Shown: one piece after another, positions 2,970 through 7,509 of the stretch | Numbering within the stretch: the stretch's first letter is position 1 | Layout of the letters: each line of letters starts with the position of its first letter | Origin: Granulicella sapmiensis | GTDB lineage: Bacteria > Acidobacteriota > Terriglobia > Terriglobales > Acidobacteriaceae | Length of the DNA stretch: 64,000 nucleotides | Reading direction: 5' to 3' | Assembly (NCBI GenBank): GCA_026225395.1 | Contig: JAMFSR010000037.1 | Coordinates: 62,001-126,000, forward strand | Notes under the pieces: model-generated | What the model saw: only the letters and a program-made list of their open reading frames with translations | What the model was told of the DNA's origin: nothing | Databases searched by the model: none | Program-made: the position numbers and the translations under genes

Positions 2970-3005
2970 CGAATCTTCTATGACCAAGAGCCACGCGGGC
3001 CGGTA

Positions 3006-3167
3006 TTAGTGGCGGGGCGTCGCGGAGTGGTCATGCACGGTCGGGGTGTGGTCGTGGACCACAGGGGTATGATCGTGCGGTGTTGCCGGGGTAGTAGAGG
3101 CAAACGCAGCAGCAGGGGTTAAGGCCAGTGCGCTTGCAACGAGGATACGGACGATTGTCTGTTTCAT
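3006..3167 (-). CDS. Small exported His-rich protein
   Basis: A 53-residue protein. The start was chosen at the ATG at 3167 because AGGAGTT lies six bases upstream and the product then opens with a clean signal peptide (MKQTIVRILVASALALTPAAAFA). The mature part is about 30 residues and nearly all of it is a repeated HDHTP-type unit (HDHTPVV, HDHTPTV, HDHSATP). Such His/Asp clusters could bind divalent metals in the periplasm, but this is inference. A second His-rich exported protein lies upstream on the same strand. I recognise no family. Confidence 0.6.
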   Translation of the reverse strand: MKQTIVRILVASALALTPAAAFASTTPATPHDHTPVVHDHTPTVHDHSATPRH

Positions 3168-3334
3168 CACAAGAACTCCTAACTGCCATATACGACGCAG
3201 CAGCCAGGAGTCTGGATTCATATTTTGGGCATACGAAAGCAACCAAATAACCGCGTCGTTACTGGGTTACATCGCCTTCTCTTTTTTTGAAACTTTGCGG
3301 TGCTTCGCAGAATCTAATCGACATTCCGCTGTGT

Positions 3335-3646
3335 TTACTGTCCCGGTCGCGCGTACTCTTCGCGCTTTTTGATCTCGTGATGGCGATGGATCTTGTTGGC
3401 GACTACGCCGCCGACTGCGCCTACACCGGCGCCGACAACTGCACCGCCGGGACCACCGACCTTAGCCCCCACAATTGCTCCACCAACAGCGCCACCGGCG
3501 ACAAACTTAGCCTTGGTGTGGTGATGGTGGTCGTGGGCATGCGTCTGGGCCACGGCGTCTTCGTGGGACTCCTGCGCGATAACGGACAGGGGCATGGAGA
3601 GCACGGCTGCGGCTACGGCGGTTGCTGCAAATGTTTTGATTGTCAT
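3335..3646 (-). CDS. Small exported glycine-zipper protein with His cluster
   Basis: A 103-residue protein with a signal peptide (cleavage expected after SVIAQ or nearby), then a His cluster (THAHDHHHH, residues about 35-44), then a Gly/Ala/Val-rich stretch with GxxxG spacing (GGAVGGAIVGAKVGG and onward) typical of glycine-zipper membrane segments, and a basic tail (HRHHEIKKREEYARPGQ). AGGAG lies seven bases before the ATG. Glycine-zipper proteins insert in or associate with the outer membrane or periplasm; the exact role is unknown. It resembles the neighbouring gene at 3006 only in being small, exported and His-rich. Confidence 0.65.
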   Translation of the reverse strand: MTIKTFAATAVAAAVLSMPLSVIAQESHEDAVAQTHAHDHHHHTKAKFVAGGAVGGAIVGAKVGGPGGAVVGAGVGAVGGVVANKIHRHHEIKKREEYARPGQ

Positions 3647-3786
3647 CTCGCTCCTCGGTAAGCCCGCGTGCGGGCGGTCATGTACAGAGACATCCGATGG
3701 CTTCTTTTTGCTTCCAGATGGCCGGAATAAACATATTTATGGGGCAACCACTTGCCGCGAAACGGGACGAGGTATAGGCTATTGCC

Positions 3787-3858
3787 ATGCGTTCGTTCTT
3801 CAGCCCGCGCCCGTTTACCTTCCGCTACTGGCCTACAGTAGCGGCCACGGCGGACTGA
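3787..3858 (+). CDS. Candidate aromatic leader peptide of the trpBA unit
   Basis: A 23-codon frame from ATG 3787 to TGA 3856-3858, ending 112 bases before trpB. Six of its 23 residues are aromatic: Phe4, Phe5, Phe10, Phe12, Tyr14 and Trp15. The Tyr-Trp codons sit in the left arm of a perfect 7-bp hairpin (3824-3842), and a terminator hairpin with a T-rich tail follows at 3900-3932. This is the arrangement of a ribosome-mediated attenuator: stalling at Tyr/Trp (or Phe) codons would change folding downstream. The Shine-Dalgarno is weak (AGG about eight bases upstream). There is one Trp codon rather than the usual two, so Phe/Tyr supply may also be sensed. Not proven; see findings. Confidence 0.5.
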   Translation: MRSFFSPRPFTFRYWPTVAATAD

Positions 3859-3899
3859 GCTTAGCTGACGTTTCAGCAAGATTCTCAAGTTACCTACCG
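3824..3899 (+). promoter_or_regulatory. Attenuator hairpin region between leader peptide and terminator
   Basis: The first stem pairs gctactg (3824-3830) with cagtagc (3836-3842) and contains the Tyr and Trp codons of the leader frame. The right arm and following bases (gcggc at 3841-3845) can instead pair with gccgc at 3901-3905, which is part of the left arm of the terminator stem, so an antiterminator alternative is possible. Pairing was worked out by eye; no energies were computed. Confidence 0.45.
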
Positions 3900-3932
3900 A
3901 GCCGCGACAGCCAATGTCGGGGCTTTTGTTTT
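3900..3932 (+). terminator. Leader terminator upstream of trpB
   Basis: A 10-bp stem with one mismatch (agccgcgaca / tgtcggggct, loop gccaa) followed by TTTTGTTTT. It stands 38 bases before the trpB ATG, with no upstream full-length gene on this strand for 930 bases, which is what an attenuator terminator would look like. Confidence 0.65.
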
Positions 3933-3970
3933 GTGCGATGGAATTTTGATTCATCCGATGGAGAAGCGAG

Positions 3971-5218
3971 ATGAGTGTTAGCCAGTTAACAAGTCCGGTG
4001 ACGGTGCCCACTTCGAGCACGCCTGGGCGCTTTGGCGTCTATGGCGGCCGCTATGTGCCGGAGACGCTGATGGCGGCGCTGCTGGAGCTCGACGCGGCGT
4101 ATGCGGAGGCCCAGGCCGATCCGGCGTTCCATGTGGAGCTGGATGGGTTGCTGAAGGATTATGTGGGGCGGCCGACTCCGCTGTACTTTGCCAAGCGGCT
4201 TACGGAGACGCTGGGCGGGGCAAAGATTTACCTGAAGCGCGAAGACCTGCTGCATACCGGCGCGCACAAGATCAATAATGCGCTGGGTCAGGCACTGCTG
4301 GCGCGCCGCATGGGCAAGCAGCGGATCATCGCGGAGACCGGCGCGGGCCAGCATGGCGTGGCTACGGCTACGGTGTGTGCGCTGTTTGGGCTGGAGTGCG
4401 TCGTGTATATGGGTGAGGAAGACATGCGGCGGCAGGAGCTGAATGTGTTCCGCATGCGTCTGCTGGGCGCTGAGGTACGTGGCGTGGCGTCGGGCTCGGC
4501 GACGCTGAAGGATGCGATCAACGAGGCCATGCGCGATTGGGTCACCAACGTACGCAACACGTTCTACATCCTCGGCTCGGCGCTGGGATCGCATCCCTAC
4601 CCGACGATGGTGCGGGACTTCCATCGCGTGATTTCGATTGAGAGCAAGCGGCAGATCCTGGCGCACGAAGGCCGTTTGCCGGATGCGATTGTGGCTTGCG
4701 TGGGCGGCGGGTCGAATGCGATTGGCGCGTTCTATGAGTACATCCCTGATACGAATGTGGCGCTGATAGGCGTCGAGGCCGGCGGGCGCGGGACGGCGCT
4801 GGGCGAGCATGCGGCGCGGTTTGCGAAGAACGGCGGCGGGGTTCCGGGAGTGCTGCAGGGCACATACAGCTATGTGTTGCAGAACGACGCCGGGCAGGTG
4901 GCGGCGACGCACTCGGTATCCGCGGGCCTCGACTACGCGAGCGTTGGGCCGGAGCATGCGATGCTGCATGACTCCGGTCGCGCCACCTACACAAGCGCCA
5001 CCGACGAGGAAGCGCTGAACGCCGTGAGTGTGCTCTCGCGGACGGAGGGGATTATTCCTGCGCTTGAAAGCGCGCACGCGATAGCGGAGGCGATCAAGCT
5101 CGCGCCGAAGATGGGCAAGGACAAGATCCTGATGGTGAATGTGAGCGGGCGCGGGGATAAGGATATTGGGATTATGACGCGCGAGATGAATTTGAGTGGC
5201 GTGGAGGCGAAGGGCTAA
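3971..5218 (+). CDS. trpB: Tryptophan synthase beta subunit
   Basis: A 415-residue PLP enzyme that joins indole and serine to make tryptophan in the alpha2-beta2 complex. The PLP lysine is in [13 protein letters not shown] (about residue 98), the loop [13 protein letters not shown] and the phosphate-binding [10 protein letters not shown] are intact, and [13 protein letters not shown] is the standard N-terminal stretch. Length matches classical TrpB1. GGAGAAGCGAG precedes the ATG. The stop overlaps the trpA start by one base (TAATG), typical of trpBA coupling. Expression is probably controlled by the leader at 3787-3932. Confidence 0.97.
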
Positions 5219-5991
5219 TGCCGATTCGTTTCAACAAGAGGCCGGGGCTGGTGATTTATCTGACGGCTGGTGATCCTGATCTGGCGACGACGCGTGAGAT
5301 GGCGCTTGCCGCCATCGATAACGGCGCCGACGTCATCGAGCTTGGCGTACCCTTTAGCGATCCGCTGGCAGATGGGCCAGTGATTCAGCGGGCAAGCGAA
5401 CGCGCTGTGGCTCGTGGCACAAGATTGTCGGATGTCCTCACGATCTGTAAGGAGCTGCGTGCTGCGCGCCCGGCGGCGGGGATCATTCTGTTCAGCTATC
5501 TGAATCCTGTCGTTCGGTTTGGCTTGCCAGCGTTTGCGAAGGCCGCGAAGGAAGCGGGCGCCGACGGCGTGCTGCTGACTGACATGATCGTGGAAGAAGC
5601 CGGCGAGTACCTGCAGGTGATGCGCGAGCACGACCTGATGCCGGTCTTCCTCGCCGCACCGACGTCGCCCGACGAGCGCCTGAAGGCCATCGCGGAAGCC
5701 TCGCGCGGGTTCGTCTATGCGATCTCGCGGGTTGGCATTACGGGCACGCAGACGGAGCTCGCCAGCGACGCGCAGGGCCTGGTCGAGCGCATCAAGCAGT
5801 TCACCACGCTCCCCGTCGCACTGGGCTTTGGCGTTTCGACCGCGGCTCATGTGAAGGCCGTTGGGGACTTTGCGGATGCTGCCGTGGTTGGCAGCGCTAT
5901 CGTCGGGTTGATTGAGAAGACTGCGGCCGGCGAAGAGGCGAAGGCCGTTGGAGAGTTTGTGGCGGCGTTGCGAGGCGGAAATGCAGCGTGA
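5218..5991 (+). CDS. trpA: Tryptophan synthase alpha subunit
   Basis: A 257-residue TIM barrel that splits indole-3-glycerol phosphate to indole and glyceraldehyde 3-phosphate, channelled to TrpB. The catalytic Glu and Asp lie in VIELGVPFSDPLADGPVIQ; the phosphate site is in GFGVSTAAHV and VVGSAIVGLIE. It overlaps trpB by one base and is followed 86 bases later by the chorismate mutase gene, so it is probably the middle of a trpB-trpA-aroQ-DAHP synthase unit. Confidence 0.97.
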   Translation: MPIRFNKRPGLVIYLTAGDPDLATTREMALAAIDNGADVIELGVPFSDPLADGPVIQRASERAVARGTRLSDVLTICKELRAARPAAGIILFSYLNPVVRFGLPAFAKAAKEAGADGVLLTDMIVEEAGEYLQVMREHDLMPVFLAAPTSPDERLKAIAEASRGFVYAISRVGITGTQTELASDAQGLVERIKQFTTLPVALGFGVSTAAHVKAVGDFADAAVVGSAIVGLIEKTAAGEEAKAVGEFVAALRGGNAA

Positions 5992-6077: not shown

Positions 6078-6347
6078 ATGGAAATTGCTGACTGGCGTAA
6101 CAAGATTGACGAACTGGATGAGCAAATCGTAAAGCTGATCTCCGAGCGCGCCGCGGCTGCGGTTGCCATTGGCAAGCTGAAGCAGGAGAGCGATGCGCCG
6201 ATCTATGAGCCGAACCGGGAGCGCGTTGTGTTTGCTCATGTGCGGGACATCAACCCTGGCCCGCTATCGGGCGTGCAGGTGCAGGATATTTACGAGCGGA
6301 TTATGGATGTGATGCGGACGCTGCAGCGGCCTGTTGAGACGAAGTAA
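6078..6347 (+). CDS. aroQ: Chorismate mutase, AroQ class, monofunctional
   Basis: An 89-residue helical protein that converts chorismate to prephenate, the branch to Phe and Tyr. The family pattern is visible: WRNKIDELDEQIVKLISERA, GKLKQES, then YEPNRERVV, supplying the Arg, Lys and Glu residues of AroQ active sites. The ATG at 6078 was chosen because AAGAGGA is placed five bases upstream; an upstream TTG at 6057 would add only a non-conserved stretch. Location after trpBA and before DAHP synthase joins Trp and Phe/Tyr synthesis in one unit. In some bacteria this mutase also regulates DAHP synthase by complex formation. Confidence 0.9.
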   Translation: MEIADWRNKIDELDEQIVKLISERAAAAVAIGKLKQESDAPIYEPNRERVVFAHVRDINPGPLSGVQVQDIYERIMDVMRTLQRPVETK

Positions 6348-6465
6348 AGAGGCAAAGACTTTGACGCAAAGTGCGCAAAGTTGAAGCCAAGTTTCGCGAA
6401 GCAAGGGCGACGAGCCCCAATGAATTAGAAGTGCAAATTTTGGACGGAAGCAAAGGACAATAGTG

Positions 6466-7509
6466 ATGATCGTAGCCATGCAGGACCGGGCAACGGATGA
6501 CCAGATTCAACATGTGATCGAGCGGATGGTTGAGCTCGGCTTCAACGTGCATCGCACGACGGGCGAACTGCAAACCATTCTTGCCGGCGTTGGAACGCCT
6601 TCGCACTTTGAGGTGACGGAGTTTCAGGTGCTGCCCGGCGTACACCAGGCGTATCGCATCTCGTCGCCGTACAAGCTGGCGGGGCGAGGTTTCCGGCCGG
6701 AAGGCACGCGGGTCACGTTCCCGAATGGGCTGGTTGTGGGCGGCGATGAGATCGTCATCATGGCTGGGCCTTGCTCGGTGGAAGGCCGCGACCAGATTCG
6801 CCTGAGCGCGAAGCAGGTAGCCGCTGCCGGCGCGCAGTTCCTGCGTGGCGGAGCGTACAAGCCGCGCAGCTCGCCGTACAGCTTCCAGGGCATGGGCGTT
6901 GAAGGCCTGAAGCTGATGCGCGAAGCCGCCGATGAGTATGGCCTGCTCGTTATCACCGAGGTCATGGAGATCTCGCAGATCGAAGCCATGCTGCCCTACA
7001 TCGACTGCTTCCAGGTCGGCGCGCGCAACATGCAGAACTTCAACCTGCTGCGGGAACTCGGCCATGTACGCAAGCCGGTGCTGATGAAGCGCGGTATCGC
7101 GGCGACGATCGAGGAAGTGCTGCTTTCGGCGGAGTACATTCTGAGCGGTGGCAACTATGACCTCATGCTGTGCGAGCGCGGCATTCGCACTTACGAAACC
7201 GCTACGCGCAACACAATGGACATCTCCGCGATCCCGGTGCTGAAGAAGCTGACGCATCTTCCGGTGTTCGGCGATCCTTCGCATGGCGTCGGTATTCGCG
7301 ATCTCGTTCCGCCTATGGCTCTGGCTTCAGTCGCCGCCGGTGCGGACGGATTGCTGATGGAGATGCATCCCGATCCGAACAAGGCGATGAGCGATGGCGC
7401 TCAGTCGCTGTTTCCGGATCAGCTGGAGAAGCTGGTAGCGAAGCTGCGGCAGCTGGCCCCCGTAGTGGACCGTTCGATTGCTCCGGCCGTTTCGCAGGTG
7501 CATGCCTAA
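6466..7509 (+). CDS. aroF: 3-deoxy-7-phosphoheptulonate (DAHP) synthase, N-terminal ACT-like domain type
   Basis: A 347-residue first-step enzyme of the shikimate pathway, joining PEP and erythrose 4-phosphate. An N-terminal ferredoxin-like regulatory domain (residues about 1-70) is followed by the TIM barrel with VIMAGPCSVEG, FLRGGAYKPRSSPYSFQG, GARNMQNFNLL, KPVLMKRG and FGDPSHGVG, characteristic of the class Ibeta enzymes known from Thermotoga. That regulatory domain normally confers Tyr/Phe feedback inhibition. GTG 6463 directly before ATG 6466 is an alternative start. The 118 bases before it contain gcaaag repeated three times. proB overlaps its 3' end. Confidence 0.95.
   Translation: MIVAMQDRATDDQIQHVIERMVELGFNVHRTTGELQTILAGVGTPSHFEVTEFQVLPGVHQAYRISSPYKLAGRGFRPEGTRVTFPNGLVVGGDEIVIMAGPCSVEGRDQIRLSAKQVAAAGAQFLRGGAYKPRSSPYSFQGMGVEGLKLMREAADEYGLLVITEVMEISQIEAMLPYIDCFQVGARNMQNFNLLRELGHVRKPVLMKRGIAATIEEVLLSAEYILSGGNYDLMLCERGIRTYETATRNTMDISAIPVLKKLTHLPVFGDPSHGVGIRDLVPPMALASVAAGADGLLMEMHPDPNKAMSDGAQSLFPDQLEKLVAKLRQLAPVVDRSIAPAVSQVHA

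Follow-up and report, generated by a model that had tools for sequence, protein, structure and literature searches.

A probable ribosome-mediated attenuator with Phe, Tyr, and Trp codons upstream of a trpBA-chorismate mutase-DAHP synthase unit in Granulicella sapmiensis

Introduction

Can a single leader RNA report on the charging of tRNAs for all three aromatic amino acids, rather than for Trp alone? The question is raised by the region preceding trpB in a 64,000-nt stretch of Granulicella sapmiensis DNA (the window, to which all coordinates refer). Attenuation is a textbook mechanism for single amino acids. The E. coli trp (trpL) and pheA (pheL) leaders follow a four-arm logic of 1:2, 2:3, and 3:4 pairings, with control codons in arm 1 and a terminator before the first gene, while the E. 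coli ilvGMEDA leader contains control codons for several amino acids and exerts multivalent control. An initial annotation of the G. sapmiensis locus proposed an aromatic leader peptide, a perfect hairpin at 3824-3842, an antiterminator pairing, and a terminator with a T-rich tail at 3900-3932, and suggested that general aromatic charging is sensed. The analysis described here indicates that the element at 3787-3934 is probably a ribosome-mediated attenuator of the trpB-trpA-chorismate mutase-DAHP synthase unit, which reads Phe, Tyr, and Trp tRNA charging together.

Leader frame, RNA structures, and promoter

The PALP-family ORF that opens the unit is taken here to encode TrpB because trpA follows it (Table 1). 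Downstream of the DAHP synthase gene are proB-like and proA-like ORFs (assigned by sequence reading), followed by a prephenate dehydrogenase gene.

Table 1. Features of the leader region and the downstream unit, in window coordinates
Feature	Position	Strand	Basis
-35-like hexamer TTGCCG, 17 nt before the -10-like hexamer	3752..3757	+	TTGC/TTGA recurrence in homologous leaders
-10-like hexamer TAGGCT, ending 6 nt before the leader ATG	3775..3780	+	positional conservation of TANNNT
Leader ORF, MRSFFSPRPFTFRYWPTVAATAD plus stop codon	3787..3858	+	frame reading, recurrence in relatives
Proposed control codons: Phe TTT 3814-3816, Phe TTC 3820-3822, Tyr TAC 3826-3828, Trp TGG 3829-3831	3814..3831	+	stalling model
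Hairpin 1:2	3822..3844	+	fold; covariation in 76 family sequences
Arm 2, GTAGCGGC; core GCGGC 3841-3845 pairs with 3901-3905	3838..3845	+	pairs formed, almost invariant
Middle hairpin GCTGA-CGTT-TCAGC, between arms 2 and 3	3864..3877	+	fold
Terminator hairpin, arms 3 and 4, T-rich tail to ~3934	3899..3925	+	fold, covariation, terminator scan
trpB, first gene of the unit	3971..5218	+	ORF, PALP family
trpA	5218..5991	+	Trp_syntA
Chorismate mutase type II	6078..6347	+	CM_2
DAHP synthase, entry step of the aromatic pathway	6463..7509	+	DAHP_synth_1

The leader frame is present as first annotated, with 23 codons that include four Phe, one Tyr, and one Trp codon. This short predicted ORF thus carries putative control codons for the amino acids that the operon produces, as expected of an attenuator. 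Among 108 family leaders, 52% of the codons around the hairpin are aromatic in the leader frame, as compared with 6% and 15% in the other frames. The hairpin proposed at 3824-3842 is also real, but its extent had been understated, as it sits within a 9-bp stem (3822-3830 with 3836-3844, loop 3831-3835) that has control codons in or beside arm 1 and covariation behind it (see below). The proposed antiterminator segments, GCGGC at 3841-3845 and GCCGC at 3901-3905, are indeed complementary, and the pairing can be extended by two base pairs (GT:AC, 3838-3839 with 3907-3908) across an A.G mismatch. The middle hairpin would shorten the antiterminator loop; in some homologues, small hairpins of differing sequence seem to be present at the same site (by eye, uncounted). 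The annotated terminator was recovered as two 5-bp stems separated by one G.G mismatch and closed by a loop of 5, with the tail CTTTTGTTTTG; an intrinsic terminator therefore lies between the leader and the first gene, with a gap of approx. 38 bases to trpB.

Folding of 3820-3935 is more stable than in any of 200 shuffles (z -3.6), and that of 3787-3935 is equalled in 2 of 200 (z -2.6). The 2:3 pairing of the window is matched by 78 of 500 shuffles and so receives weak support from this sequence alone. In the four equilibrium folds run, the terminator wins over 2:3; thus, the 2:3 pairing would have to act kinetically.

The nearest upstream ORF (3335-3646) is located on the opposite strand, and therefore the promoter should fall between it and the leader. 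A strict sigma-70 scan found no promoter; the promoter suggested here is based on positional conservation relative to mononucleotide shuffles. In particular, 83 of 119 leaders have a TANNNT box 5-10 nt ahead of an ATG that is in frame, versus 252 of 2380 shuffles (11%). Among these 83, the best -35 candidate starts with TTGC or TTGA in 64, and a Shine-Dalgarno-like 4-mer is present in six. Since the -10-like box of the window lies so close to the ATG, the transcript probably begins at or near this codon. The conserved position of the box and the rarity of Shine-Dalgarno-like motifs make it likely that the leader transcript is leaderless, with its start at or next to the ATG. A promoter downstream of 3858, which had been named as evidence against attenuation, was not seen; the promoter-like pattern is instead found just upstream of the ATG.

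Conservation within the genus and spread through the family

A trpB match was found in 24 of 28 same-genus genomes. One match (G019, E 5e-4) was taken as spurious and one gene is in two pieces, which left 23 real loci to be read. The initial annotation had staked its reading on the frame and its aromatic codons recurring in relatives, and in all 23 loci the leader frame is open and includes a Trp codon, and the GCCGC terminator arm is present. The Tyr codon is present in 22 of them (L087 has Asp), and a full ATG-started frame likewise in 22 (L084 has Ns over the start). The stop codon lies 30 nt past the Tyr position in 22 leaders and 33 nt past it in L090. In most loci, hairpin 1:2 is near-identical; its arms are changed in L087, L097, L098, and L099. 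The trpB match of L096 (G023) was reported with one in-frame TGA.

At E<=0.01, a covariance model (R1) built from 20 same-genus leaders gives matches in 126 of the 250 genomes of the family, the weakest being partly false. Of about 150 matches listed, the stronger 130 were examined along with L001 and L002; since one locus is represented twice among these 132, there are 131 distinct matches. The next gene, assigned by blastp and confirmed by Pfam for representatives, is trpB in 41, DAHP synthase in 34, shikimate kinase (aroK) in 33, and chorismate mutase in 14; one further leader stands at a contig end, and the remaining eight matches, all below 31 bits, are false. The assigned aromatic ORF starts at most 120 nt from the model's end in 120 of 122 matches. 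Moreover, all five trpB loci that have at least 3.2 kb of downstream sequence show a DAHP synthase match no more than 3.6 kb away. The eight false matches (L138, L140-L143, L151, L153, and L155; 24 to 31 bits) were dropped, as none of the four genes is next and they look like plain terminators; true matches scoring equally low are L235, L154, L150, L157, and L144. In L182, L199, and L217, the gene that comes after the chorismate mutase gene and its aromatic leader resembles lpxC (by sequence reading).

The genome of the window itself carries a second copy (L136:590-744, contig C29) before aroK, whose leader starts with MTTFRTSGRFSYYYWYPQRPADVRLSL and contains a YYYWY run. In the stretch examined upstream of trpE in this genome, no short ORF starting with ATG exceeds 18% aromatic codons, and none reaches 20% within 400 nt upstream of distant trpB genes (13 loci; 126 nt for L006). 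The lack of aromatic leaders at distant trpB genes indicates that the element is not tied to trpB itself.

In the order, a second model, R2, gives matches in 143 of 249 genomes, every one of which belongs to this family; in the phylum, it does so in 45 of 396 genomes, nine of them outside the family. Five of these nine look like Phe/Tyr-rich leaders before pheA or chorismate mutase-pheA-DAHP synthase (by Pfam, except L252); the other four (L254, L256, L257, and L258) were discarded, and so was L259, a match within the family. In the leaders of L250, L252, and L253, from other families of the phylum, Phe and Tyr codons alternate (FYFYFYF, FYFYF); these leaders, too, precede pheA or chorismate mutase-pheA-DAHP synthase units.

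Both stems covary in an alignment of 76 of the 132 match loci, picked for variety and fitted to the proposed structure. Two-sided changes occur at three of seven pairs of hairpin 1:2 (94% of cells paired) and at six of ten terminator pairs (97%). The arms of 1:2 change together with the codons (TAC/GTA, TAT/ATA, TTC/GAA, TGC/GCA, TCT/AGA, ACC/GGT). The 2:3 core pairs are formed in 70 to 76 of the 76 sequences per pair and are kept, by eye, even where 1:2 is broken; as this core is almost invariant and shows no covariation, covariation cannot test 2:3. Compared with their own shuffles, 38% of 109 family leaders have a 2:3 pairing in the best 5% (mean z -1.4). Outside the family, L255 has a 12-pair antiterminator of different sequence equalled by 1 of 500 shuffles; the corresponding counts are 8 for L251, 37 each for L250 and L252, and 63 for L253. 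By this measure, the pairing is strong in L255 and L251, but weak in L250, L252, and L253.

Codon placing and ribosome stalling

Codon positions were related to a zone of A-sites at which a stalled ribosome (footprint to A-site +12) would mask arm 1 and spare the arm 2 core. In total, 123 leaders were kept, 119 of them with a usable ATG; modelling, shuffle, and frame tests used the 107 to 109 with exact core sequences. In the 119 leaders, aromatic codons make up 439 of 740 codons in the zone (59%) versus 353 of 2597 elsewhere (14%). The share is 0.74, 0.63, 0.88, and 0.90 at offsets -27, -21, -15, and -12 from the arm 2 core (107 leaders), 0.12 to 0.44 at -45 to -33, and 0 to 0.09 from -6 on. 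Phe codons in the zone are mostly TTT (TTT:TTC 144:43 versus 264:549 in first genes; Fisher 1e-28, relatedness ignored), with 69 TTT to 1 TTC at offset -27; outside the zone, leaders have a ratio of 99:93.

The equilibrium probability of the antiterminator core was modelled for the same 107 leaders with the RNA ended just after arm 3. It is 0.98-0.99 at A-site offsets -27 to -15, 0.60 at -12, 0.03 at -9, and 0 thereafter; the aromatic share at -9 is still 0.40 despite the low modelled probability. A-sites upstream of the zone average 0.5-0.85, and the ribosome-free 2:3 probability has a mean of 0.37 (0.90 in L182); thus, the model does not predict sharp switching for every relative. The window is predicted to switch sharply: stalling at Phe 3814, Phe 3820, or Tyr 3826 yields 0.99 versus 0.001 without a ribosome. 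In this model, a stall at the control codons would mask arm 1 and free arm 2, with Trp as a borderline case. The aromatic codons of the leader are not equally suited to this role: the two Phe codons and the Tyr codon just named are well placed, but the first Phe pair (3796-3801) is too far upstream (0.05-0.07), and the effective zone has the Trp codon at its edge (0.64). The latter value depends on how far the footprint extends past the A-site, being 0.99-1.0 for 9-11 nt, 0.55 for 13 nt, and at most 0.07 for 14 nt or more; with 9 nt, the first of the well-placed Phe codons falls to 0.51.

The attenuator design is supported by conservation, by covariation of 1:2, by the placing of aromatic codons, and by the promoter-like pattern upstream of the ATG. 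The RNA would begin at or beside the leader ATG and be translated at once without a Shine-Dalgarno sequence. When all three tRNAs are charged, the ribosome would clear FTFRYW fast and cover arm 2 at the stop codon, or be released so that 1:2 forms; in either case, arms 3 and 4 would build the terminator. If one of the tRNAs is short, the ribosome would stall on Phe 3814, Phe 3820, Tyr 3826, or Trp 3829, masking arm 1 and leaving the arm 2 core free. Arm 2 could then pair with arm 3 ahead of the synthesis of arm 4, so that transcription would continue into trpB.

Which amino acids are sensed

That general aromatic charging rather than Trp alone is sensed, as initially suggested, is supported on a comparative basis: Phe, Tyr, and Trp codons are retained at predicted effective positions, the element is also found ahead of genes for DAHP synthase, shikimate kinase, and chorismate mutase, and the Trp codon is missing where chorismate mutase comes first. 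With the stricter zone, a Trp codon is found in 37 of 40 trpB, 31 of 33 aroK, and 25 of 31 DAHP synthase leaders, and in none of the 14 chorismate mutase leaders, which have Phe, Tyr, His, or Ser at this position (Fisher for trpB versus chorismate mutase, 2e-10, relatedness ignored). Since relatedness inflates leader counts, genera were also compared, using a slightly wider zone (aroK 33/33): at least some leaders have Trp in 10 of 10 trpB-type groups (eight genera and two unplaced loci) versus none of four chorismate mutase genera. Of the 119 leaders, 115 have Phe and 115 have Tyr in this wider zone. It thus looks as if the codon set were tuned to the output of the pathway, which argues for real use of each codon. 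L255, which has chorismate mutase first but lies outside the family, carries a Trp codon and stands against this reading.

A less likely alternative is that a classical attenuator senses one amino acid in practice (Phe or Tyr, or Trp) and that its other aromatic codons are inherited or neutral. The window has only one Tyr and one Trp codon, the latter at the zone edge. Moreover, the Corynebacterium glutamicum aroR-aroF attenuator, whose leader reads Phe-Tyr-Phe, responds to Phe and not to Tyr, according to the accounts of Neshat et al. 2014 given in PMC11802643 and PMC4046766, and this case too argues against real use of each codon. However, all three codon kinds occur in the zone in 86 of 105 trpB, aroK, and DAHP synthase leaders (32/40 + 1/1 + 30/33 + 23/31), and Trp is kept in these classes while being swapped in the chorismate mutase leaders.

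The strong conservation of the RYW core in the genus would fit a TnaC-like arrest peptide, in which the peptide sequence, not the codon supply, stalls the ribosome; this is highly improbable, as the residues vary among aromatic ones across the family, much of the remaining peptide differs, and the codons change together with arm 2. A terminator under the control of a ligand or protein (T-box, riboswitch, or TRAP-like), accompanied by an incidental ORF, is hardly credible. A structured, conserved 5' region ending in a terminator is compatible with it, but the open frame has aromatic codons concentrated in one frame, and none of 4227 Rfam models, including leaders and T-box, matched positions 3000-4500 of the window up to E 10, bar a weak match inside trpB. 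Six family loci were likewise without a match at gathering score, and for this reason T-box, riboswitch, and known leader identity were rejected. Finally, the chance of a constitutive terminator with a chance ORF and no regulation is negligible: the eight weak model matches do resemble plain terminators, but the genus-wide frame, aromatic next genes, covariation, codon placing, and single-frame aromatic enrichment all stand against it.

Relation to known attenuators and significance

The attenuator proposed here would share with trpL and pheL of E. coli the four-arm logic, the control codons in arm 1, and the terminator before the first gene; in those leaders, however, the control codons are for one amino acid, and the present element is without an Rfam match. 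Like the ilvGMEDA leader, it combines codons for several amino acids in one leader, which in that case are branched-chain ones. The E. coli trp and pheA attenuators are also described in PMC11802643, and Rfam RF00513 is named in PMC4046766.

The nearest studied case appears to be C. glutamicum aroR, a leader that contains both Phe and Tyr codons and precedes a DAHP synthase operon; ribosome-mediated attenuation is reported for it in PMC11802643 and PMC4046766. As described there, it differs in belonging to an actinobacterium and in having no Trp codon. The Sinorhizobium meliloti trpL attenuator RNA is leaderless and starts at the leader ATG, as proposed here, but is Trp-responsive and belongs to trpE(G) (PMC7298713). 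The uORFC-13-1 motif likewise combines a predicted uORF, in which at least one codon is for Phe, with a terminator upstream of aroF; in the section of PMC8632094 devoted to it, the motif is assigned to Acholeplasma and unknown environmental sources, with an RBS and 24 representatives, and no Tyr or Trp codon is mentioned. Mixed aromatic codons before DAHP synthase (C. glutamicum aroR) and a Phe uORF before aroF (Acholeplasma) are therefore already known. The open-access literature, among the matches listed, contained no description of the present element, no Trp in such a mixed leader, no occurrence before aroK or chorismate mutase, and no attenuator of this kind for Acidobacteriota; subscription papers (e.g., Lopatovskaya et al. 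2010, cited in PMC4833913) could hold cases. The proposed mechanism is classical, working like the trp and phe attenuators; the three-way input and the spread over several operons look new.

Somewhat more likely than not is a further reading, in which a single ancestral attenuator spread between operons by duplication or transfer and now forms a family-wide aromatic regulon (DAHP synthase, chorismate mutase, trpBA, shikimate kinase, and partly pheA). It would act as an OR gate for Phe, Tyr, and Trp charging within a codon window of approx. 20 nt, with codons retuned to the branch that is fed and Trp dropped where chorismate mutase leads. The comparisons point to one RNA element as the sensor for an entire class of amino acids, in units that include the gene for the entry enzyme. 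The natural leaders with differing codon sets resemble a codon-swap experiment and make multivalent sensing directly testable; moreover, they provide a regulon prediction for many poorly studied bacteria.
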